A stretch of DNA of 64,000 nt, taken from the NCBI GenBank assembly GCA_024711005.1, contig JANJTQ010000009.1, positions 1 to 64,000 on the forward strand, read 5' to 3'. This stretch comes from Opitutaceae bacterium. Its GTDB lineage: Bacteria > Verrucomicrobiota > Verrucomicrobiia > Opitutales > Opitutaceae. Positions within the stretch are counted from its first letter, which is position 1, and each line of letters begins with the position of its first letter. A program made the position numbers and the translations under genes. Positions 28,208-63,940 of this stretch are shown here, piece after piece. Below the pieces are notes generated by a model that saw only the letters and a list, made by a program, of their open reading frames with translations, was not told the origin of the DNA and made no database searches.

Positions 28208-30940
28208 ATGCGAGCCCCTCGTTGCACCTATCGGATCCAACTGCATGCCGGCTTTACCTTCGATGCCCTGACGGCGCTCGTACCCTATCTCCACGCACTC
28301 GGTGTCTCCGATTGCTATTGTTCCCCGGTTTTTCGGGCAACACCGGGCAGTCGGCACGGGTATGACGTCTGCGATTATCACCTCATCAACCCGGAGCTGG
28401 GCGGGGAAAACGCATTGCGCCGGCTCGCCGATCGTCTGCGTGAACATCGCATGGGACTCTTGCTCGATTTCGTGCCCAACCACATGGGAATCGACGGCCC
28501 GTTCAACCGTTGGTGGCTCGACGTTCTCGAACATGGACTGAACTCCTCCTATGCCCGGTTCTTCGACATTCACTGGAAGGCCAACCACGAGCCCGGCGGC
28601 TCGCGCGTCTTTGCGCCCTTGCTTCCCGAACATTACGGGGTGCTCCTCGAATCCGGCAGACTGCGCCTGGTCTACGAAAACGGAGAACTGACCCTGGCTC
28701 ACGAACAAGCGCGCTTCCCCGTACGTCCGGAGACCTACGCGGATATCCTCCGCCGGATCGTTCCAACCTATACGTCTGTCACGGAACCGCCTTCAAACGC
28801 CCCCAACCCTTTCAAGCAACACCTCGCCGATCTGCTCGCCCAAAAGCCGGAGATGCACGCCGTCCTCGATCGCTGTTTGGACCGCCTCAACGGGACTCCC
28901 GGCGACCCCGGCAGCTTTGATGAGCTCGATCGTATAATCGAGAGCCAGCACTACCGGCTCGCCCGCTGGCAGGCTGGTGCCCACGGCACCAATTACCGGC
29001 GTTTCTTTGCGATCGATACCTTGGTGGGCATGCGCATGGAGGACCCGAAGGTCTTCGAGGAAACCCATGGCCGTCTGCGTGAACTGATTCGCGAGCGGAT
29101 CGTGACAGGACTGCGCATCGACCATGTCGATGGCTTGCGCGATCCGCAGGGTTATCTGGAACGCCTTCAGTCGCTCGCCAGCAACGCGTCCGAGGGCGAC
29201 CCCGCAAGGACACCCGACTCCTTCTACGTGGTTGTGGAAAAAATCCTCGCCGAAGGAGAAACCCTCCCGCCCTCCTGGGCTACCCAAGGCACCACCGGTT
29301 ATGACTTCATCGGTCAGCTTGCCGGCCTCTTCTCCGACTCCCGAAACGAAGAGGCATTCGACGAAATCTACGCGGACTTCACTGGCCGCCGTCCTCCGGA
29401 CTTCGAGTCCGTGGTTTACCAGAAGAAGCGTCTGGTCCTGGACGAAATGTTTGCCAATACCGTGCACACCTTGGCGACGACGCTCGCCGAACACATCGCC
29501 ATCGACCGACGCTGGCGCGACCTGACGCCGACCGAATTGTCGGCTGTCATCCGCGAATTGCTCGCGGGGTTCAGGGTTTACCGCACCTATCGTCGCCAAG
29601 GTCCGGCTTCATCAACCGACCGGGCTGAGATCGAACACGCGGCATCGTCGGCATTGGCGCGCAATCCACGACTCGAGCCCGCGGTCATCCGCTTCGTGCG
29701 CGACGTCTTGCTCGGCGATTACCCGGAACCCGCCGCGGTCCCGGCGCACCGAAACGCCATCAATGACTGGGCGCTCACCTTCCAGCAATACACCGGGGCC
29801 GTCACCGCGAAGGCCGTCGAAGACACCGCCTATTACGCTTTCAATCGTCTGATCGCGCTCAACGAAGTCGGCGGGGCACCGGGCACGTTCGGTGCCAACG
29901 TGAAGGGCTTCCACGAAGCGAACAGCCTGCGGCTTGCCCGGACTCCGCACACGTTGCTCACAACCTCGACCCACGACACCAAGGTCAGCGAAGACGTGCG
30001 CGCCCGGCTCTACGCGCTCTCCGAGATCCCCGATGAATGGCGCGCCTGGCTCGACGAATGGAGCGCGTTGAACGCCGTGCACAAAACCGCCCTCGACGGA
30101 CATCTCGCGCCGGATGCGGACGAAGAATACCGCCTGTACCAAACGCTTCTCGGCGCATGGCCACTGCCTCCGGCCACCCCCGACGACGGCTTTCGTGAAC
30201 GCATCGTCGGTTATCTGCGCAAGGCGGTGAACGAGGCCAAGGTTCACACGAGCATCATCCATCCAAACGACGCCTGGCTCGAAGCCTGCGATCGTTTCGT
30301 GAATGGGTTGCTGGCACCCGACGGAGGGTTTTTCCCGAGTTTTCAATCCGCCGCCGCACGCCTCGCGCGCCTCGGACTGATCAACTCTCTCGCCCAACTC
30401 GTGCTCAAACTCACCGTGCCAGGCGTGCCGGATATTTACCAAGGGAACGAAGCTTGGGACTTCAGCCTCGTCGACCCCGACAATCGGCGCGATGTCGACC
30501 GCTCCGCATCACAGAAGTGGGACGCAACCACCGCGGACACATCCGTCGGCGAACTGTTTGCCCGCTGGGAAACCGGCGAAATCAAATTCGCACTGACCCG
30601 ACGCTTGTTGCGTTTTCGAGGAGAGCATCCGCGGCTCTTCAGCGATGGCGGCTACACACCATTGGAAATTTCGGGAGTCCTCGCCCGTCATCTCGTGGGG
30701 TTCGCGCGGGATGAAGGCGACGACTGCCTCGTCGTGCTTGTGCCGCGGCTTACATCGAGTCTCCCCTGGCCTCCCCTCGAGGCCGCATGGGCCGACACGC
30801 ACGCACAATTGGACCCATCGTGGGGAACGCACTGGACGGACGTTCTCACCGGCGCGCCCATCGAAGCGCGGAAGGACGTTGCGCTACGGGACGCGTTTGC
30901 CGTGCTGCCCGTTGCCGTGCTGCACGCACGTCGTGACTAG
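28208..30940 (+). CDS. treY: Malto-oligosyltrehalose synthase
   Basis: 910 aa; TYRIQLHAGFTFDALTALVPYL, LLLDFVPNHMGID, VTGLRIDHVDGLRDPQGYL, PGVPDIYQGNE. Confidence 0.95.
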   Translation: MRAPRCTYRIQLHAGFTFDALTALVPYLHALGVSDCYCSPVFRATPGSRHGYDVCDYHLINPELGGENALRRLADRLREHRMGLLLDFVPNHMGIDGPFNRWWLDVLEHGLNSSYARFFDIHWKANHEPGGSRVFAPLLPEHYGVLLESGRLRLVYENGELTLAHEQARFPVRPETYADILRRIVPTYTSVTEPPSNAPNPFKQHLADLLAQKPEMHAVLDRCLDRLNGTPGDPGSFDELDRIIESQHYRLARWQAGAHGTNYRRFFAIDTLVGMRMEDPKVFEETHGRLRELIRERIVTGLRIDHVDGLRDPQGYLERLQSLASNASEGDPARTPDSFYVVVEKILAEGETLPPSWATQGTTGYDFIGQLAGLFSDSRNEEAFDEIYADFTGRRPPDFESVVYQKKRLVLDEMFANTVHTLATTLAEHIAIDRRWRDLTPTELSAVIRELLAGFRVYRTYRRQGPASSTDRAEIEHAASSALARNPRLEPAVIRFVRDVLLGDYPEPAAVPAHRNAINDWALTFQQYTGAVTAKAVEDTAYYAFNRLIALNEVGGAPGTFGANVKGFHEANSLRLARTPHTLLTTSTHDTKVSEDVRARLYALSEIPDEWRAWLDEWSALNAVHKTALDGHLAPDADEEYRLYQTLLGAWPLPPATPDDGFRERIVGYLRKAVNEAKVHTSIIHPNDAWLEACDRFVNGLLAPDGGFFPSFQSAAARLARLGLINSLAQLVLKLTVPGVPDIYQGNEAWDFSLVDPDNRRDVDRSASQKWDATTADTSVGELFARWETGEIKFALTRRLLRFRGEHPRLFSDGGYTPLEISGVLARHLVGFARDEGDDCLVVLVPRLTSSLPWPPLEAAWADTHAQLDPSWGTHWTDVLTGAPIEARKDVALRDAFAVLPVAVLHARRD

Positions 30941-31090
30941 TCCGTAGCGATGGAATCGGACATGGCAGCCGAGCACAGGGACAGAGGCGCTGCGCGGCCC
31001 AGTTGTAACCGCAAGAAACTGGGTTGGCGTGGGCCGGGAAGGGCCATGTTTCTTGGGAGGTAACGAGGCTGATTGGTTTCAGCTCCGTTG

Positions 31091-31531
31091 CTACGACGAA
31101 AACACGTCTTCTCTCACCCGGGATGACGTCATTTCGCCAAGCAGTCGATTGCAGCATTCCTGACAATAGCGGCAGGTATCGGCACACGTGGCGCAATGGC
31201 CGTGCATCGACGCATGCGAAAAACATTCGTCGGCGCAGACTTGGCAGGCGAGTACGCAGGCATGCACCTGTGCCTGCACAAGCGAACTGTCGGTCTCGGT
31301 CTGCCGCGTGAGAAGCCGGGCCGTGGTCCCGCAGATATCGGCACAATCCAGATTCGTCCGGATACAGCGAATCAAACGCTCCCTATGCTCGGTTTCTCCG
31401 AGACAGGCATCGGCGCACGAGGTGCAAACCTGCTCGCAAGTGGCCAGCATCGCGACGGCCTCGGCATAGGATTCACGGGAAGTCGGCAGCGCACGAGGGT
31501 GCTGGTTGAGCATAATATCAATGGTTTTCAT
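31091..31531 (-). CDS. Four-helix bundle copper-binding protein (Csp/DUF326-like)
   Basis: Cys-rich CEQVCTSCADACLGE...CIRTNLDCADICGTT...CVLACQVCADECFSH...CATCADTCRYCQECC. Confidence 0.9.
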   Translation of the reverse strand: MKTIDIMLNQHPRALPTSRESYAEAVAMLATCEQVCTSCADACLGETEHRERLIRCIRTNLDCADICGTTARLLTRQTETDSSLVQAQVHACVLACQVCADECFSHASMHGHCATCADTCRYCQECCNRLLGEMTSSRVREDVFSS

Positions 31532-31674
31532 CGGCGGTGGTGGTGCCGGGAATGTTTACCACAACGCCCCGCAAACCGGCATCGGGCCCGCAGCCCAAAC
31601 GGCCACCGGTCAAAATGCCCGTGTCTCTTCCGACGCCGATCGCCAACGCGGTCGGCCCCTCCGAGCCACTCGGC

Positions 31675-32211
31675 CTACGCGGCCCTCCGACGATCCTCGG
31701 TCATCTGCCGCCTGCGGTGGCGGCCAGCGGCGAGGTTGTCCAAAAAACTCGCCAGCGTGGCACTGCTCGCCCCGCGATAGATCCGCTTCAGAATCACCTG
31801 GGCTTGCGGCAACGAACAGAGACATCCGGGAAAGTCGTGTTCATGTTCAAGTGTCGGAACCGTCACGTCCCTCGGCACCGACTCCACGAACAGGTGTTCG
31901 GGGTCGCCGATTCCAGCAAAACAGATCCGCGTCAGCCCATCCTTCGGCGTCACAATCAACTGCCCGGTTTCAAACAGGGCCCGGCTCAACCGGTTCGATG
32001 CCGCCGCTTCAGGCAAGTCGGTCGTTTCCTGTCCCGGGTCCCGTGGGTCCTGGTCCGCAAACGAGGGCGTGTCGCCGCCGGGCGAAACGACGAATCTCGG
32101 CACGCCACCGGTTTCCGGGTCTCCTTCCCGGTTGATGAATATCACCGGTAACATCACATCCTTTTTCTTCCCGGGCTGGTTCGTTCCTGTCGTGCGGACC
32201 CGATTGATCAT
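31675..32211 (-). CDS. Hypothetical protein (start approximate, MINRVRTTG...)
   Basis: ORF between the Csp gene and treZ; no recognised domain. Confidence 0.5.
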   Translation of the reverse strand: MINRVRTTGTNQPGKKKDVMLPVIFINREGDPETGGVPRFVVSPGGDTPSFADQDPRDPGQETTDLPEAAASNRLSRALFETGQLIVTPKDGLTRICFAGIGDPEHLFVESVPRDVTVPTLEHEHDFPGCLCSLPQAQVILKRIYRGASSATLASFLDNLAAGRHRRRQMTEDRRRAA

Positions 32212-32316
32212 TTCGTTTTCTCCTGATTGGCAGACTGCCATGCAGTCTTGGGGTTATTGTTTGACGCGTCTTTTGCGCAGTGGATTTCAAACATGTCACA
32301 AAACGTAAGCGGACGG

Positions 32317-34284
32317 TCATGCGGGACAGGGCAGCGGAAAATCCACTTCCCCGGACGGAGCCGGCTCTCTGGATTCGCACGCAACGGCCTCGGCCACGGC
32401 ACCGTTATCAACCTCGCGCAACAACACCGCGCCAGGAAGACCGACCAGTAAACCTTGGTCGCCGCCACGCCAGACGAGCTGCTTCGGCGATCCGCCGAAA
32501 CAGGGTTCGTTGCTCGCGATCACCAGCCGCCACCGATATCCGTTCGAGGGGCGGGTAAAGGGTTCACCATGCGCAATGCCCTCGTCCCCCTCGGCCACGC
32601 CCGCGAGCAGCAACCAATCGCCTTTGGGATCGCTCCAACGCACGCCGACGAGATGCCCGCCAATCTGTCGCACGGACCAGCGATCCCGTGAGGGCGATTG
32701 GAAAATCTCCTCCTGCGCGCGAAGTTGCAGGCAGTCGCGATAGAGATCGAGGACCTGGCGATGCGGGGTCTCGCAGCGCTCCTCCCAGTTCAATTTCGCG
32801 GAGATAAACGTTTCCCGTTGCTGCGGGTCCGGCATGCGTGCCAGCACGTCCTTCGGATAACGAGCGCCATAGTGGGCGAACTCCTTCAACCGGCTTTCCG
32901 CCATGCCCTCGCCCGCGTTTCCCGGCACGTCGGTGAAATAGGGAAAGGGCGTTCCGGCGGCCCATTCCTGCCCCATAAACAACAGCGGCGTGTAGGGCGA
33001 AAAACACAGCATCATTGAAACCGCGCGATAAGCGGCGGGCGTCACCACATCGTGCAGACGGTCGCCAAGCGGGCGGTTGCCAACCTGGTCGTGGTTCGAG
33101 ATGCAAACAACAAACCGCTCCGGCGGCACATGGCCGGCGGGCGTTCCGCGCGGACGTTTCCAATGCGTGAAAAACTGCCCGTCGTAGAGCCAGCCCTGCG
33201 TCAAGGTCCTCACCCATTCGCCCACCGCGCCCGAATAACTTTTGAAATGCGCTTCCTTCTGCCCCGTCAGTGCGACGCGAATCGTGTGATGAAGATCATC
33301 CGACCAAAGCGCATCGAGTCCCCACCCGGCCTTGCGCGCCGGCGTGATCACGTTGACGTCGTTGCGGTCGTCCTCGGCGATCACCCACGCGTTTCGCGCA
33401 TGGGCCGCGGCCGCGATCTCGGCGACGAGGTGCCGGGGTGAATCGTCGCGGATCGCATGCACCGCATCCACGCGGAGTCCGTCAAAGCGATACTCATCGA
33501 GCCACATGCAGACGTTCTGGACAAAGAATCGCCGCACCGCGGTCTCGTCATAGTTGAATGCCTGTCCCCAGAGGTTGCCTCGCTCCCGATGGAAATAGCC
33601 GTGGGCATACTCGGGCAGCACGTTGCCGCAGGGGCCGATATGGTTGTACACCACATCGATGATCACCGCGAGGTTGCGGGCGTGCGCGGCATCCACCAAC
33701 GCCCGCAGTTCGTCGGGCGTGCCATAACACCGGGCGGGGGCGAACAACGAGACGCCGTCATACCCCCAATTGCGTTCGCCGGGAAAATCGGCGAGCGGCA
33801 TCAGCTCGATCGTGTTCACCCCCAGGGCAGCCAGATTATCCAGCCGCGAAACAGCGGCCGCAAAGGTCCCCTCCGGAGTGAAGGCACCGACATGCAATTC
33901 GTAGATCACCCGCCCGCGAAACGAGGGACGGCGCCACTCGTCGGTTTGCCATGAATACGCGAGCGGATCGATCACTTGCGACGGTCCGGTCACACCGTGC
34001 GGTTGATAGCGCGACGCAGGGTCCGGGAGGAGTTTCCCGTCCACCTCGAACCAGTAGAGGTCACCGGCGCGTCCCCGGGCGTCCGTGCCGAAAAAAGAGC
34101 CTTCGCCATCGGCATCGAGGTCCATCCAACGCGAGTCCCCGTCCCTGTCGATTCGCACGCGCAACGATCGGTGGTCGGGAGCCCAGACGCGGTAAGTCAC
34201 TCCGTCTTCGGAAAGACCGGCTCCCACCGGAGGAAACGTGCCGGCCTCGGCCGCATGAACCAGAGAAAGTAACGGATCACTCAT
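32317..34284 (-). CDS. treZ: Malto-oligosyltrehalose trehalohydrolase
   Basis: VTYRVWAPDHRSLRV, YELHVGAFTPEGTF, IDVVYNHIGPCGN, GLRVDAVHAIRD. Confidence 0.94.
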   Translation of the reverse strand: MSDPLLSLVHAAEAGTFPPVGAGLSEDGVTYRVWAPDHRSLRVRIDRDGDSRWMDLDADGEGSFFGTDARGRAGDLYWFEVDGKLLPDPASRYQPHGVTGPSQVIDPLAYSWQTDEWRRPSFRGRVIYELHVGAFTPEGTFAAAVSRLDNLAALGVNTIELMPLADFPGERNWGYDGVSLFAPARCYGTPDELRALVDAAHARNLAVIIDVVYNHIGPCGNVLPEYAHGYFHRERGNLWGQAFNYDETAVRRFFVQNVCMWLDEYRFDGLRVDAVHAIRDDSPRHLVAEIAAAAHARNAWVIAEDDRNDVNVITPARKAGWGLDALWSDDLHHTIRVALTGQKEAHFKSYSGAVGEWVRTLTQGWLYDGQFFTHWKRPRGTPAGHVPPERFVVCISNHDQVGNRPLGDRLHDVVTPAAYRAVSMMLCFSPYTPLLFMGQEWAAGTPFPYFTDVPGNAGEGMAESRLKEFAHYGARYPKDVLARMPDPQQRETFISAKLNWEERCETPHRQVLDLYRDCLQLRAQEEIFQSPSRDRWSVRQIGGHLVGVRWSDPKGDWLLLAGVAEGDEGIAHGEPFTRPSNGYRWRLVIASNEPCFGGSPKQLVWRGGDQGLLVGLPGAVLLREVDNGAVAEAVACESREPAPSGEVDFPLPCPA

Positions 34285-34323
34285 GACTCGGAACGAAGCA
34301 TGTCCATTGAAGTTGAATCTCCG

Positions 34324-36615
34324 TCAGGCCGACGCGATGGGTCTGAGGAGCGTCGGAGGCACAGCCAGCGGGCCCTTCGCTTTGCTCGTCGGCGAAGGCT
34401 TTCCCGCGGGACGGTCCTTCCGCGGTACAGTCGACTCGTCGGCCGGATTTTTCAAGGTGCGGGCTTCGTCATCGGTGCCCTCCACCTGGACGTAAAGAGC
34501 GGTCGAATGCGCCGGCAGCGGCTGTTCGTCGCCGGCCTCAAAAACGAAGTCGTCGTCGATAAACCCCGCTTCGTCCGCCGTATCGACGAGGCGCCGCCAG
34601 CGAACATGTCCCTTGCCTTTGCCGGGCAGCGCCACCGTCGCGTCTTGCGAGTCGGCATTGAAATAAACGAGGAACGTGTCGTCGCGAACGGGTTCGCCAT
34701 AATAGTCGCGCAAGTCGAGCGAGTCGCCGCACAGCATCACTCCGAACACCTTGGCGAAGCCGGCCTGCCACGCTTCGTCGCTCATCGCGGAACCGTCGGC
34801 GCTCAGCCAATTGATATCCTTCACCCCGTCGCCGCGCAGGTCGTGTCCGCGGAAAAAGTCAGGCTGATGAAAGATTGGATGCTTGAGTCGAAAATCGATG
34901 AGCCGGCTGGTGAAGGTCGTGAGCCGCTGCGCATGCTCGTCACGCGACCAATCGAGCCAGCTGATCTCGTTGTCCTGACAGTAGGCGTTGTTGTTTCCTC
35001 CTTGCGTCGCCCCGTATTCGTCGCCGGCGCGAATCATCGGCACGCCCTGCGAAAGCAACAGCGACGACATAAAATTGCGCATCATTCGGCGGCGCAGCAC
35101 CTGGATTTCCTCCGGTGCATCGAGGCCTTCATGCCCCCAATTGCAGGAGTTGTTGTTGTCGGTGCCGTCCTTGCCCCGCTCGCCGTTCGCCTCGTTGTGT
35201 TTGTCGTTAAACGAGACGAGATCGCGCAAGGTGAAGCCATCATGCGCGGTGATAAAGTTGATGCTGGCCGAGGGTGTTCTGCTGGTGTTCTCGTAGATGT
35301 CGGCACTGCCGCAGAAGCGATAGGCGAAGCGGCTCATCCGGCCATCCTCCCCTTTCCAGTAACGCCGCAGGGTGTCGCGATAACGACCGTTCCATTCCGC
35401 CCAAAGCACCGGGAAATTGCCCACCTGATAACCGCCGTCGCCCAAGTCCCAGGGTTCCGCGATGAGCTTCACCTGCGAGATGATCGGATCCTGTTGAATC
35501 GCATCGAAGAATGCGGAGAGCTTGCTCACGTCGTGCAGTTCGCGCGCGAGCGCCGGCGCGAGATCGAAACGGAAGCCGTCGACATGCATCTCGGTCACCC
35601 AATAGCGCAGACTGTCCATCACCAGCTGGAGCACGCGCGGATGCATCATATTGAGCGTGTTTCCCGTACCGGTGTAATCCATGTAGTAACGTGGATCTTC
35701 ACCAACGAGGCGGTAATAACTGGCGTTGTCGATGCCGCGAAACTCAAGCGTCGGCCCGAAGTGATTGCCCTCCGCGGTGTGGTTGTAGACGACATCCAGA
35801 ATCACCTCGACTCCCGCCGCGTGCAGGCTGTTGACCATCGTCTTGAATTCATAGACTTGGGCGCCTCCGTGACCGACGCTGCAGTAGTCGCCTTCGGGCG
35901 CGAAAAAACCGAGCGTGTTGTAGCCCCAGTAGTCGCCGAGTCCCTGGTCGAGGAGGTGCTTCGATTCGGCATGCTCGTGCACCGGCATCAATTCAAGCGC
36001 GGTCACCCCGAGTTCCTTGAAATACGCGATCGCCTCGGGACTGGAGAGTCCGGCATACGTGCCGCGGATCCTGGCCGGAAGCGCCTCCCACCGCCGGGAG
36101 AATCCTTTCACGTGCAACTCGTAGATGACGCTCTCGTGAAACGGGCGATTAGGCCGGTTGTGGTCGCTCCAGTGGAACACGGTGTCCACGACCACCGCCT
36201 TGGCCGTGATGGCGGCGTTGTCACGATCATCGAACGAGAGGTCCTGATCTTCGTGGCCGATTCGATAACCGAACATTTCGTCCAACCACCGGGGGCTCCC
36301 GCAAACCGCCTTCGCATACGGATCGAGCAAGAGTTTGTTGGGATTGAAACGATGCCCGCTCTTCGGCTCGTAAGGTCCCTCGACCCGGTATCCGTAAAGC
36401 TGGCCGGGCCGCGCCTCGGGCAGGAATCCATGCCAGACATAACCGGTGCGCTCGGTCAGGCGGATACGGGCGGTTTCAGACCCGTCGGACTCGTCGAACA
36501 GGCAGAGTTCGACTCCGGTCGCGTTCTCGGAAAACAGAGTAAAATTAACCCCCGATCCCGTCCACGTGGCCCCGAGAGGGTAACTGTATCCTTTCCAGAG
36601 TTTGAACGCAGTCAT
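34324..36615 (-). CDS. glgX: Glycogen debranching enzyme GlgX/TreX
   Basis: YPLGATWTGSGVNFTLFSENATGVELCLFD, YELHVKGFSRR, VILDVVYNHTAEGN, GFRFDLAPALARE. Confidence 0.95.
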   Translation of the reverse strand: MTAFKLWKGYSYPLGATWTGSGVNFTLFSENATGVELCLFDESDGSETARIRLTERTGYVWHGFLPEARPGQLYGYRVEGPYEPKSGHRFNPNKLLLDPYAKAVCGSPRWLDEMFGYRIGHEDQDLSFDDRDNAAITAKAVVVDTVFHWSDHNRPNRPFHESVIYELHVKGFSRRWEALPARIRGTYAGLSSPEAIAYFKELGVTALELMPVHEHAESKHLLDQGLGDYWGYNTLGFFAPEGDYCSVGHGGAQVYEFKTMVNSLHAAGVEVILDVVYNHTAEGNHFGPTLEFRGIDNASYYRLVGEDPRYYMDYTGTGNTLNMMHPRVLQLVMDSLRYWVTEMHVDGFRFDLAPALARELHDVSKLSAFFDAIQQDPIISQVKLIAEPWDLGDGGYQVGNFPVLWAEWNGRYRDTLRRYWKGEDGRMSRFAYRFCGSADIYENTSRTPSASINFITAHDGFTLRDLVSFNDKHNEANGERGKDGTDNNNSCNWGHEGLDAPEEIQVLRRRMMRNFMSSLLLSQGVPMIRAGDEYGATQGGNNNAYCQDNEISWLDWSRDEHAQRLTTFTSRLIDFRLKHPIFHQPDFFRGHDLRGDGVKDINWLSADGSAMSDEAWQAGFAKVFGVMLCGDSLDLRDYYGEPVRDDTFLVYFNADSQDATVALPGKGKGHVRWRRLVDTADEAGFIDDDFVFEAGDEQPLPAHSTALYVQVEGTDDEARTLKNPADESTVPRKDRPAGKPSPTSKAKGPLAVPPTLLRPIASA

Positions 36616-37984: not shown

Positions 37985-38557
37985 TCAACGGGCTTCCTTG
38001 TGACGCTTGGCCTCCTCCAGATGCTCCTTGAGCTTCGGCAGCGCATCGCGGGCGAATCCGGCGATTTCAGGATCGCTCGACTTCGCGCCCTTTTCGAAGA
38101 GCTCCAAGACGTCCTTGTGATCGGAAACCATCTCGTCGATGTAGTCTTCGTCGAGCGTCTCCGACTGTTCGCTCCACTTTTCAACGAGGTCCACCTGCTT
38201 GTCCTCGGCCGGCAAGGAGACGCCTTTGCGATCGGCCAACGCCTTCAACTCCTTTCGCAAAGCCGCGTGGTCCTTGATCACCCTGCGGGCAAAATCACGC
38301 ACGGCCGGTTTGGTCACGTTGGGCAGCACGGTTTCCGAAACGACGATCTCCTTCGTCCCGGACTCGGTCGCCTTCTCCAAGAACACCCGATCGCTCCGTT
38401 TTACGATATCCCCGTGCGTCGTCACCCCGGGCTCGTGATAACCGGCGGGCGGAGGTTGAGGCGGCGTTGAAGGGGTGTCCTGAGCAACGAGGAGGGAGAC
38501 CGGAAAAACGGCGGCGCATGCCGCGAAAAAACGGTAAAAACCGAGGTGCGTATTCAT
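37985..38557 (-). CDS. DUF4142-domain secreted protein
   Basis: FLEKATESGTKEIVVSE...VRDFARRVIKDHAALRKELKALA. Confidence 0.8.
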   Translation of the reverse strand: MNTHLGFYRFFAACAAVFPVSLLVAQDTPSTPPQPPPAGYHEPGVTTHGDIVKRSDRVFLEKATESGTKEIVVSETVLPNVTKPAVRDFARRVIKDHAALRKELKALADRKGVSLPAEDKQVDLVEKWSEQSETLDEDYIDEMVSDHKDVLELFEKGAKSSDPEIAGFARDALPKLKEHLEEAKRHKEAR

Positions 38558-38776: not shown

Positions 38777-39226
38777 ATGCCGAAGAACGTTTTGTTGGTC
38801 GCCGAAGACGACCCGGTTGACGCCTTGTTGATCGAACGCGCGCTTCGTCGTTCAGGCTCCGGATTTCGAATGGTGCGCGTCACCAACGGAGACGAACTGA
38901 TCGACTATGTCCGAGGGCATGGAGCCTATGCCGATCGGACCCTTCACCCGACGCCCGAGATCGTGTTACTCGACTTGAGGATGCCTCGAACCGACGGCTT
39001 CGCCTTCTTGCAATGGCGACAGAAAAGCCCGGATGGAAATCGCCTTCCGGTGGTCGTATTCTCCTCCTCCGCCCGCCAGCAGGATGTCGATCGCGCCTAT
39101 TCGCTCGGCGCCAGTTCCTACGTCGTGAAACCCACCGCGCCCGACCGGCTCGAGTCCATGGTCAGGGCCTTGCACGACTGGTGGGCCGTATTCAACACCA
39201 CCTCCACCTCGACTCGTCTCGCGTGA
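38777..39226 (+). CDS. Response regulator (Rcp1-like single receiver domain)
   Basis: LLVAEDDPVDALLIERAL, IVLLDLRMPRTDGF, VVVFSSSA, SYVVKPT; stop overlaps kinase start (TGATG). Confidence 0.92.
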   Translation: MPKNVLLVAEDDPVDALLIERALRRSGSGFRMVRVTNGDELIDYVRGHGAYADRTLHPTPEIVLLDLRMPRTDGFAFLQWRQKSPDGNRLPVVVFSSSARQQDVDRAYSLGASSYVVKPTAPDRLESMVRALHDWWAVFNTTSTSTRLA

Positions 39227-40440
39227 TGCCCACCCAGCCCCCCGTCACCTCATCACCGAGCTGGTTCACGCGACCGCTTTTCCGCTGGAGCATCGGTATT
39301 CTCGGCGCCGTCATCGGCGGCGTGCTTGCGTTCGAAGCGCTGGGCATCTCGGTGTTCTCGCGCATCGGCATGCCCCACGAGTTTTGCTACTTGCGGGATC
39401 CCAAACTCGTCTGGTTGCACGTTGTGGCCGATCTCCTGATCGGCCTGGCCTATGTATCGATTTCGGCGACGCTCGCCTACCTCGTTTACAAGGCCAGCAA
39501 GGGCATTCCGTTCAATTGGGTATTCCTTGCGTTCGGGCTGTTCATCGTCTCGTGCGGCTTCACTCATTTCATGGAAGTCTGGGTGATTTGGGAACCCGTC
39601 TACTGGCTCTCCGGCTACGTCAAGGTGGTGACCGCCGCCGCCTCCGTTGCCACCGCGATCGCCCTGTTTCCACTCCTGCCGAAGATCTTCACGTTGATCA
39701 AATCCGCACGCCAAAGCGAAGAGCGACGCGTGGAGATTGAACGACTCAACCAGGAACTGGAGCGCTTCAATTATTCCGTCGCCCACGATCTTCGCAGTCC
39801 CCTGCGAGGGATCTCCGGCTTCAGCCAGATTCTGCGCGAGGATTGCGCCGCGGAGTTATCCCCCGAGGCGCTGGAATACTTGGACCGGATCCAGAGCTCC
39901 GTTTCCAACATGGATACGCTTATCTCGGACCTGTTGAGATATGCCACCATCGGAAAGCAAAAGCTGAAGCTGACCGCCGTTCCGCTCGACGAGGTCTTGC
40001 GTTCGACCCTCGCACTGATGAGCGCGGAAATCGACGACCGAAAGGCCAAGGTGGTGACCACCGGTCCGCTGCCCATCGTGCTCGGCGACGCGACGCTGCT
40101 GCAGATCATCTTTCAGAATCTGATCGGCAACGGGATCAAGTTCGTTGCGCCGGACGTCCGCCCCCGCATCGAGATCTCCAGCAAGACCCACATTGGATTC
40201 GTGACAATTTACTTCACGGACAACGGACTGGGCATTCCCCCCGAGGCGCAAGGCCGCATCTTCGGACTGTTTGAACGCTTTCACGCACAGTATGCCGGAA
40301 CGGGCATCGGTCTGCCGATCGTTCACCGTGCGATCGAACGCCTGAACGGCGAAATCAGCGTCGGCCCGGCTCCGGCCGGCACCGGTTCGCGTTTCCGAAT
40401 CACCCTCGCATCAGCCGATCCTAAACCCACCTCGGCCTAA
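39226..40440 (+). CDS. Sensor histidine kinase with ETR1-like (ethylene receptor) transmembrane domain
   Basis: TM region ...VADLLIGLAYVSISATLAYLVYKAS..FNWVFLAFGLFIVSCGFTHFMEVW; H-box FNYSVAHDLRSPLRGISGF; G boxes DNGLGIPPEAQ/GTGIGLPI. Confidence 0.85.
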   Translation: MPTQPPVTSSPSWFTRPLFRWSIGILGAVIGGVLAFEALGISVFSRIGMPHEFCYLRDPKLVWLHVVADLLIGLAYVSISATLAYLVYKASKGIPFNWVFLAFGLFIVSCGFTHFMEVWVIWEPVYWLSGYVKVVTAAASVATAIALFPLLPKIFTLIKSARQSEERRVEIERLNQELERFNYSVAHDLRSPLRGISGFSQILREDCAAELSPEALEYLDRIQSSVSNMDTLISDLLRYATIGKQKLKLTAVPLDEVLRSTLALMSAEIDDRKAKVVTTGPLPIVLGDATLLQIIFQNLIGNGIKFVAPDVRPRIEISSKTHIGFVTIYFTDNGLGIPPEAQGRIFGLFERFHAQYAGTGIGLPIVHRAIERLNGEISVGPAPAGTGSRFRITLASADPKPTSA

Positions 40441-45934: not shown

Positions 45935-46783
45935 ATGCCCCTCTCTTTCACCCCGAACGAAACGTTCACCCAGCTGAAACCCACGAATCCCCACCGGGTG
46001 CTCGTCACCGGAGCCGGAGGGCGCATCGGATCCTACTATGCCGAACATGCGCCGGCTCATCATGTACGCCGACTCATGGTCCGTCCGGGAGATCCCGACG
46101 CGCAAAAACTGGCGGCCTGGGGCGAGGTCGTCGAAGCCGCCCTCGATGACCGCGTGCGGTTGATCGAGATTTGCCAGGGCATGGACACCGTGGTCCATCT
46201 CGCGGCCAATCCGAATCCCAACGCCGATTGGGACAGCCTGCTTCAGGCAAATATCATCGGTACCTACAACCTCATGTCCGCGGCGCGCGTCGCAGGCGTG
46301 AAGCGCGTCGTCTACGCCTCGTCCATTCACGCGGTGTCCGGTTATCCGCCCGACGTGCAGGTGAAGACCAGCGAACCGGTCAACCCTGGTGATCTCTACG
46401 GCGTCTCGAAGTGCTTCGGTGAAGCCCTTGGTCGTTACTTTGCGGAACAGGAAGGCATGTCGGTGATCGCCCTGCGCATCGGTGCGTTTCAATCCCTTCA
46501 GAAGGCCGCCGATCCGCACAACGCCGGGTTGTTGGATGCCTTCGTGTCACGACGGGATTTGAACCAATTGCTCGTGCGGTGCGTGGACGACGAGACGCTG
46601 CGCTTCGCGATTTTTCACGGCCTGAGCAACAACCGGTTCAAGCGACTCGATCTCTCCGATGCACGCGCGCTCCTCGGTTACGAGCCGCACGACGACCTCG
46701 CGGCCGAGAACCCGCAGTTCAAACACACCGCACTCGCGGAAGATCCGGAAACGCACAAAGGCACGCCTCAAGGCCGGAAGTGA
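45935..46783 (+). CDS. NAD-dependent epimerase/dehydratase
   Basis: RVLVTGAGGRIGSYYAEHA, DTVVHLAANPNP, YASSIHAVSGY, YGVSKCFGEALGRYF. Confidence 0.92.
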   Translation: MPLSFTPNETFTQLKPTNPHRVLVTGAGGRIGSYYAEHAPAHHVRRLMVRPGDPDAQKLAAWGEVVEAALDDRVRLIEICQGMDTVVHLAANPNPNADWDSLLQANIIGTYNLMSAARVAGVKRVVYASSIHAVSGYPPDVQVKTSEPVNPGDLYGVSKCFGEALGRYFAEQEGMSVIALRIGAFQSLQKAADPHNAGLLDAFVSRRDLNQLLVRCVDDETLRFAIFHGLSNNRFKRLDLSDARALLGYEPHDDLAAENPQFKHTALAEDPETHKGTPQGRK

Positions 46784-62176: not shown

Positions 62177-63940
62177 ATGCTCACCGACTTCATCTCCAAT
62201 TTGCAGCGCAAGCCGGTGCCCGCATGCACGATTGCGATCTATGTCGTGTGCACCGCCTTGATGGCGTGGGTCAGACTTGGCCCGACGGCCGACAGCATCG
62301 GAACCATCGGATACGGACTGCCTTTGCTGATCTGCCTTTGGTACCCCCAGAGGCGTTTGCTTTGGAGCCTGGTCGTCACGTTCGCGGCGATAGCGGCCTT
62401 CAACATCTTCATCACCCCTCCCCAATGGGCCCTCGGACAGCAGTTCCAAATATGGAACATGCAAATGATCAATATGCTGGTCACGGGCTTGGCCGTGCAC
62501 CTGGTGATTGTTTTGATGACCAAGCTTCGGACCCAGAAAGCGGAACTCGAGGCATCCAATCAGGAACTCCTTGCCCACGAGGAGGAGATTTCCCGGCAGA
62601 ATGAGGAGTTGCAGAGCCAGTCCGAGGAGCTCGCCCAGCAAAACGAGGAAATCCAGCAACAGGCCGAGGAACTACAGACGCAGACGGAGGAATTGCACGC
62701 GGCCAACGAGGAATCCAACAAACGCCAGGCGGTTCTGCAGGCGCTGCTCGAGTCCCTTCACTCCAACGATACGCACGATCTGCCCGCACGCGTCTGCCAC
62801 TTGCTGATGTCGCTCCTGGGCGACGCCGCCGAAGCCGCCGTCGTCTTGAAGAAGGACGGCGACGATCTCGTGGTGGTGGCGCAAGCTGGACCGATCGGCC
62901 TGCCAACCGATCGGTGGGCCTACGATCGGTCGTTCGCCGCCGTGGTGATGCAGCATGACCGCACCGCATATGTGCCCGACCTGCGGCTTCGCCCGGACCT
63001 GAAGGGCGCGCAGACAACGGACCGAATGTTTCGCTCGGTGATGGCGACGCCGCTACGGCTCGCCGGAAAACCGGCCGGTGTCGTCAAGGTATATTCCGTT
63101 CACGCGCACGAATGGAGCAAGGAACAGTTTCAAATCGTCGAATGGATGTCGGCCCAATGCTCGCTTCTGATGGATTCGCGCCGGCTTCAATTGGAACTCC
63201 AACGCGTCAACACCAGCCTCGATCACCTCGTGACCGAGCGCACCGCCGAGTTGCAGGAACTGGTCAACGAACTGGAGCACTTCTCCTACACGATCACCCA
63301 CGACCTCCGTGCCCCGCTGCGGGCGATGCATGGCTTCGCCGGCCTGCTCAGCGACGAGTGCAAAACCGTGCTTAACGAACAGAGTCGCGAATACCTCAGC
63401 CGCATCACCACCGCGGCCGGCCGCATGGATCGACTCATCACCGACGCCCTCAGCTACAGCAAGGTCGTGCGTCATAAAATGCCAATGGAGCCCACCGATG
63501 TGGATCGTCTGCTGCGAGGCATGATCGATTCGTATCCCATTTTCCAAGCCCCCAATGCGCACATCGAGATTGTCGAGCCGCTGCCTTGGGTTCTCGGCAA
63601 CGAAGCCGGACTCACCCAGTGTCTTTCCAATCTCCTCGGCAATGCGGTGAAATTCGTGGCTCCCGGACAGGTGCCGGTGATCCGCGTCAAGGGTGAACAG
63701 CTCGGCGACAAAGTGAGGCTCTGGTGCGAGGATAACGGCATCGGCATTCCGAAGGAATTGCAGACGCGCGTCTTCATCATGTTCCAGCGATTGAGCAAAG
63801 ACTACGAGGGAACCGGCATCGGCCTGGCGCTCGTCAAAAAAGTGGTCGAACGCATGGGCGGCGCCGTGGGCGTCGAATCGGAGCCCGGCAAGGGCAGCCG
63901 CTTCTGGATCGACCTTCAGTCCGTCGACTCCTCGTCATGA
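62177..63940 (+). CDS. Sensor histidine kinase (TM - long coiled coil - GAF - HisKA - HATPase)
   Basis: KdpD/DUF4118-like TMs; EELQSQSEELAQQNEEIQQQAEELQTQTEEL coiled coil; FSYTITHDLRAPLRAMHGF; GTGIGLALVKK. Confidence 0.92.
   Translation: MLTDFISNLQRKPVPACTIAIYVVCTALMAWVRLGPTADSIGTIGYGLPLLICLWYPQRRLLWSLVVTFAAIAAFNIFITPPQWALGQQFQIWNMQMINMLVTGLAVHLVIVLMTKLRTQKAELEASNQELLAHEEEISRQNEELQSQSEELAQQNEEIQQQAEELQTQTEELHAANEESNKRQAVLQALLESLHSNDTHDLPARVCHLLMSLLGDAAEAAVVLKKDGDDLVVVAQAGPIGLPTDRWAYDRSFAAVVMQHDRTAYVPDLRLRPDLKGAQTTDRMFRSVMATPLRLAGKPAGVVKVYSVHAHEWSKEQFQIVEWMSAQCSLLMDSRRLQLELQRVNTSLDHLVTERTAELQELVNELEHFSYTITHDLRAPLRAMHGFAGLLSDECKTVLNEQSREYLSRITTAAGRMDRLITDALSYSKVVRHKMPMEPTDVDRLLRGMIDSYPIFQAPNAHIEIVEPLPWVLGNEAGLTQCLSNLLGNAVKFVAPGQVPVIRVKGEQLGDKVRLWCEDNGIGIPKELQTRVFIMFQRLSKDYEGTGIGLALVKKVVERMGGAVGVESEPGKGSRFWIDLQSVDSSS

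Follow-up and report, generated by a model that had tools for sequence, protein, structure and literature searches.

The DNA stretch analyzed here (the window) comprises 64,000 nucleotides from an Opitutaceae bacterium and carries a two-component gene pair whose kinase resembles the plant ethylene receptor ETR1 in its membrane domain. The question raised by this locus is whether that domain belongs to the ETR1 family and, if so, whether copper and ethylene are what it senses. The features of the pair were as follows.

38777–39226, + strand: receiver-only response regulator (RR) of the Rcp1/RcpB type, 149 aa (Response_reg, E = 1.7e-17; PDB match)
39226–40440, + strand: ETR1_N sensor histidine kinase, 404 aa (PF25487, HisKA and HATPase_c)
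39274–39339, + strand: extra N-terminal transmembrane (TM) helix, residues about 17–38 (AlphaFold2 helix, hydropathy)
39370–39429, + strand: predicted extracytoplasmic PHEFCYLR segment with Cys54 (39385–39387), aligned to ETR1 Cys6
39400–39495, + strand: helix 1 of the ethylene-binding domain (EBD), residues 59–90; Asp69, Tyr76 and Ile79 kept, Ser80 (39463–39465) in place of Pro36
39514–39585, + strand: EBD helix 2, residues 97–120; Ile107 and the predicted Cu(I) ligands Cys110 (39553–39555) and His114 (39565–39567)
39601–39843, + strand: EBD helix 3 and signalling helix into the dimerisation/phosphotransfer domain, residues 126–206; Lys133 corresponds to ETR1 Lys91
40084–40410, + strand: HATPase_c catalytic domain, residues 287–395 (E = 3.1e-20; N, G1 and G2 boxes)

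The original prediction had assigned the kinase to the ETR1/EBD family by eye. This assignment was borne out by the profile search, in which PF25487 (ETR1_N) matched the kinase with E = 5.5e-36 and 123 bits against a curated cut-off of 27, and none of the 14 control genomes gave an ETR1_N match. Judged by this profile, the resemblance to the ETR1 sensor domain is far beyond chance. The source genome contained a single ETR1_N gene. As is characteristic of the family, three TM helices were found, with Asp69 in helix 1, the Cys-x3-His pair (Cys110/His114) in helix 2 and Lys133 in helix 3; the codons originally given for Asp69 (39430–39432), Cys110 and His114 were correct, and so was the extra TM helix placed before the three ETR1-like helices, which both hydropathy and AlphaFold2 located at about residues 17–38. 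When the EBD was modeled alone with AlphaFold2 from 13 sequences, three helices were obtained with a pLDDT of 83. In the full-length model, helix 3 and the DHp helix formed one continuous helix (126–206), and confidence was low in the EBD/membrane part (blocks of about 50–65). The PDB gave no match to the sensor sequence and nothing below E = 0.001 in a fold search with the EBD model; thus, a solved template for the copper site is lacking.

The named genomes nearest to the source genome were all from Opitutaceae: a Rariglobus sp. MAG (86%), Opitutaceae UBA4094 (82%) and Opitutus sp. (81%). Of the genomes sampled, 13 of 120 from the family Opitutaceae and 24 of 388 from the phylum Verrucomicrobiota carried ETR1_N, other phyla being sampled through plasmid records only. 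When 252 family genomes were searched, the EBDs fell into two clear classes. The first comprised nine genomes from four genera, including the source genome, with proteins 64–100% identical to the sensor in the window, and the second comprised other EBDs with 55% identity or less. The nine orthologues formed one well supported clade (99/94), which in the EBD tree was joined first by Deinococcus aquaticus (95/80) and then by the cyanobacterium Kovacikia minuta (99/96); this tree was built on 113 columns, and most of its deep forks were not resolved. Arabidopsis ETR1 was placed beside a cyanobacterial EBD (99/77), in line with the literature. A second EBD subtype was observed in other families and classes of Verrucomicrobiota (L020–L034), where RW.CG.W...HGWLH replaces the N-terminal PHG.CYLW and the Cys again lies 15 residues from Asp25. 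A literature search covering few subscription papers returned no paper on ethylene receptors of Verrucomicrobiota.

Conservation along the kinase was compared among the nine orthologues. Mean pairwise identity was 51% for the N-terminus with the extra helix, 81% for the EBD, 71% for the linker/DHp and 57% for the ATPase part, and the corresponding mean dN values were 0.44, 0.14, 0.22 and 0.38. As synonymous sites were near saturation, identity and dN were relied on instead of dN/dS. The EBD was the most conserved and slowest-evolving part of the kinase, and the N-terminus with the extra helix was the least conserved and fastest. Therefore, it was concluded that the sensor is under selection, and decay of the sensor was rejected on the comparison of the EBD (81%) with the ATPase part (57%).

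The kinase reading frame begins with the ATG at 39226 and ends at 40440. The stop codon of the RR gene (TGA, 39224–39226) shares its A with the first base of this ATG, and the two genes run in the same direction with a 1-base overlap, which confirmed the receiver-only partner predicted immediately upstream with a TGATG overlap. Pfam placed ETR1_N at residues 61–156, HisKA at 178–243 and HATPase_c at 287–395 of the kinase, which has neither a PAS nor a GAF domain, and found a single Response_reg domain and no other in the receiver. Read from the sequence, the pair has the parts of a two-component system: a predicted HisKA phospho-acceptor (His187, 39784–39786, within helix 126–206), the HATPase_c motifs NLIGNGIKF, DNGLGIP and GTGIGLPI, and a partner receiver with Asp and Lys, in which Asp66 (38972–38974) is the expected phosphorylation site. 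An NCBIfam scan gave generic kinase and regulator matches only, none near cut-off. The best PDB match of the RR was the phytochrome response regulator RcpB (E = 7e-22), RcpA and Rcp1 also being matched, and the kinase core matched bacteriophytochromes, among others. Cph1/Rcp1-type phytochrome systems likewise combine a kinase core with a receiver-only RR, but their sensor is a bilin-binding phytochrome and not an EBD. At seven of the nine orthologous loci, the RR lay upstream of the kinase, and the flanks examined at the other two yielded no RR; accordingly, the pairing is the usual but not the invariable arrangement.

Two genes, at 37985–38557 (before the pair) and 45935–46783, are kept beside the pair in two close relatives. 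At 62177–63940, the translation shows a second histidine kinase in which the H-box (THDLRAPLRAMHGF) is similar and the membrane sensor is different; it might share the receiver-only RR with the ETR1_N kinase. The source genome also encodes a CopA-type Cu(I) ATPase, which is weak support for the copper site because, to our knowledge, nearly all genomes have one. The window also carries ordinary trehalose/glycogen genes at 28208–36615 (malto-oligosyltrehalose synthase-like, trehalohydrolase-like and glgX-like), recognised from translations only.

Positive charges preceded the extra helix, followed helix 3 and occurred in the loop between helices 1 and 2. As this pattern fits the positive-inside rule, the extra helix would make the protein N-in/C-in and leave the Cys54 segment periplasmic. 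By this reading, the N-in/C-in arrangement corresponds to the way in which the ETR1 EBD is known to be oriented. The extra helix, being poorly conserved, probably acts only as a topology-determining anchor. The Cys54 equivalent was conserved in 50 of 57 homologues. ETR1 Cys6, to which it aligns, forms the inter-subunit disulfide in plants, and Cys54 is the predicted extracytoplasmic Cys for such a disulfide in this kinase. A disulfide role has been proposed for the single N-terminal Cys of bacterial receptors (PMC6682694). Plant subfamily 2 receptors likewise carry an additional hydrophobic stretch at the N-terminus (PMC6682694); it resembles the extra helix in position, and homology is not implied.

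The residues needed for ethylene binding were then compared. In AtETR1, alanine scanning identified seven such residues, namely, D25, Y32, I35, P36, I62, C65 and H69 (PMC11819568), and P36 is counted among the seven in PMC6586836 as well. Six of the seven were present in the kinase: D25, Y32, I35, I62, C65 and H69 correspond to Asp69, Tyr76, Ile79, Ile107, Cys110 and His114, and K91 and S98 to Lys133 and Ser140, whereas P36 is replaced by Ser80. All of these residues except P36 were kept in 9/9 orthologues, and the Asp and Cys-x3-His conservation originally claimed is thus invariant across the clade. Position 36 was Ser in all nine Opitutaceae orthologues and in Kovacikia and Ala in Deinococcus; among 57 homologues, 41 had Pro, 13 Ser, 2 Ala and 1 Gly. 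A sequencing error was ruled out because nine genomes agree on Ser. Thus, the kinase lacks one of the traits that define functional ethylene receptors, although membership of the domain family is still plain. The by-eye comparison had been right about Asp, Cys and His but had overlooked the loss of Pro36. Its copper-binding part stands on strong ground, and the predicted Cu(I) site is likely to be real. The ethylene part was not established and, with Ser80 in place of Pro36, is weaker than first supposed; the chance that ethylene is the physiological ligand of this kinase falls just short of even. No binding data for a Pro36-less homologue were found in the literature search.

Bacterial ETR1-like sensor kinases are already known, and both SynEtr1 and AzoEtr1 bind ethylene (PMC11819568). 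In Azospirillum brasilense, AzoEtr1/AzoRR-etr1 likewise combines ETR1_N, a histidine kinase and an adjacent receiver-only RR, with Asp, Cys, His and Lys conserved (PMC11819568), so the find is less surprising than had been implied. However, all seven residues are reported in AzoEtr1, which also differs in having a PAS domain, only three TM helices and its RR downstream; its EBD is about 38% identical to that in the window. Synechocystis SynEtr1 and Geitlerinema GeiEtr1/2 likewise have bacterial EBDs in which only one Cys is present at the N-terminus, and SynEtr1 signals through its own kinase to an RR; unlike the kinase in the window, these proteins are reported to have all seven residues, together with GAF/PAS domains (PMC6682694). 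The Arabidopsis ETR1/ETR2 subfamilies have the three-helix Cu(I) domain as well, but ETR1 keeps Pro36, has a GAF domain and signals through CTR1. In the EBD tree, the nearest proteins from beyond Opitutaceae, those of K. minuta and D. aquaticus, also lack Pro36; the former is a large hybrid kinase, and the latter has no N-terminal Cys and has Arg for Lys91. Accordingly, we consider the kinase to be probably a copper-site membrane sensor of the kind represented by SynEtr1 and AzoEtr1, and the Pro36-less Opitutaceae clade is a distinct, testable variant.

EBD proteins without a kinase were also observed in phages. In Maribacter phage Molly_1 (MT732451.1), a tblastn match proved to be ETR1_N (Molly1_65; 60.9 bits, E = 1.5e-16). 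This 289-aa protein without a kinase is annotated as hypothetical (L038:2959–3828, identical to L084:5001–5870), and its gene lies directly before an Amidase_3 endolysin gene. In a fold search with the window EBD model, the only match below 0.001 was a 289-aa viral protein, A0A8E4UZR7 (TM 0.79), which from its equal length is probably Molly1_65; the alignment behind the model included other viral EBDs but not this protein. At least six more kinase-less genes, encoding stand-alone ETR1_N proteins of about 120–155 aa, were found in IMG/VR contigs:

L076: 4983–5354
L078: 4989–5408
L079: 4977–5381
L081: 3195–3566
L082: 1300–1689
L083: 852–1313

The gene neighbours an endolysin-like gene in L078, lies between terminase and portal genes in L076 and has a terminase nearby in L083; lysozyme genes also occur near some of these genes. 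Two of the kinase-less genes in tailed phages are beside endolysin genes. Several adjoin a small gene resembling a TM helix plus coiled coil, and the stand-alone proteins are possibly membrane proteins of the lysis region. The viral EBDs keep the N-terminal Cys, Tyr32, Ile35, Cys65 and His69, with Cys-x3-His invariant, mostly lose Asp25 and Lys91 and often lose Pro36. A second scan with viral EBDs alone gave no further cases, so kinase-less phage EBDs are considered rare, and the same literature search returned no paper on them. The portal protein in L076 (5946–8624) has an Acb1 (anti-CBASS) domain at its C-terminus (PF23474, E = 1.1e-32).

As for Cu(I) binding, the ligand, the direction of the response and phosphotransfer to the co-encoded RR, we infer a working scheme. 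The kinase would be a dimeric inner-membrane sensor holding one Cu(I) per subunit between Cys110 and His114 of the second ETR1-type helix, positioned by Asp69. Helix 3 would be shifted either by a small molecule that enters the copper site from the membrane, possibly ethylene or a different soft ligand of copper, or by the copper load itself. Since helix 3 runs on into the phosphotransfer domain, this shift would change kinase output, and phosphate would pass from His187 to Asp66 of the Rcp1-type receiver, which, having no output domain, would signal by protein contact.

What the copper site would report can be read in different ways. In one reading, quite possible if short of an even chance, the kinase is a plain ethylene receptor like AzoEtr1 that still binds ethylene with Ser80 in the place of Pro36, the pair controlling attachment or motility in response to plant or microbial ethylene. 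All copper ligands and the Asp-Lys relay are kept, and the layout of a histidine kinase with a receiver-only RR is that of AzoEtr1/AzoRR and of a Novosphingobium plasmid pair; however, the residue that alanine scanning found necessary in ETR1 is absent from every clade member. The persistence of the Cu-site residues and Asp69–Lys133 despite the loss of Pro36, in the Opitutaceae orthologues and in Kovacikia, would also suit a kinase that uses the EBD copper site to sense copper itself or a different small copper ligand, such as CO or other alkenes, but not ethylene; we hold this reading as tentative and somewhat doubtful. The phage stand-alone EBDs point the same way: in them, Cys-x3-His persists although Pro36 and Asp25 are often gone, so that the copper site can be uncoupled from the remaining residues needed for ethylene. 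On the other hand, no copper-resistance gene was recognised beside the pair among the window translations.

Loss of Pro36 could also fix the output, as in dominant-insensitive plant alleles, leaving a signalling-locked or decaying receptor whose domain is a mere anchor. The tomato ETR3 Pro36Leu change does render the plant ethylene-insensitive (PMC6727826). However, within the kinase, the EBD has changed most slowly and the N-terminal anchor region most rapidly, and the other six binding residues are invariant in nine genomes, which makes this explanation very improbable.

Direct evidence of bacterial ethylene perception has so far come from a few cyanobacteria and Azospirillum. The clade described here, from another phylum, has a copper site under strong selection and a change in one residue essential for ethylene. 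Thus, the Pro36-less clade offers a natural test of the role of Pro36 and of whether the domain senses anything besides ethylene. It is rather unlikely, but conceivable, that the clade has re-purposed the EBD to sense copper or another copper ligand instead of ethylene and, together with the kinase-less phage EBDs, shows that the "ethylene-binding domain" serves generally as a Cu(I)-site module in membranes; if this is true, ethylene sensing would be one use of such a module.
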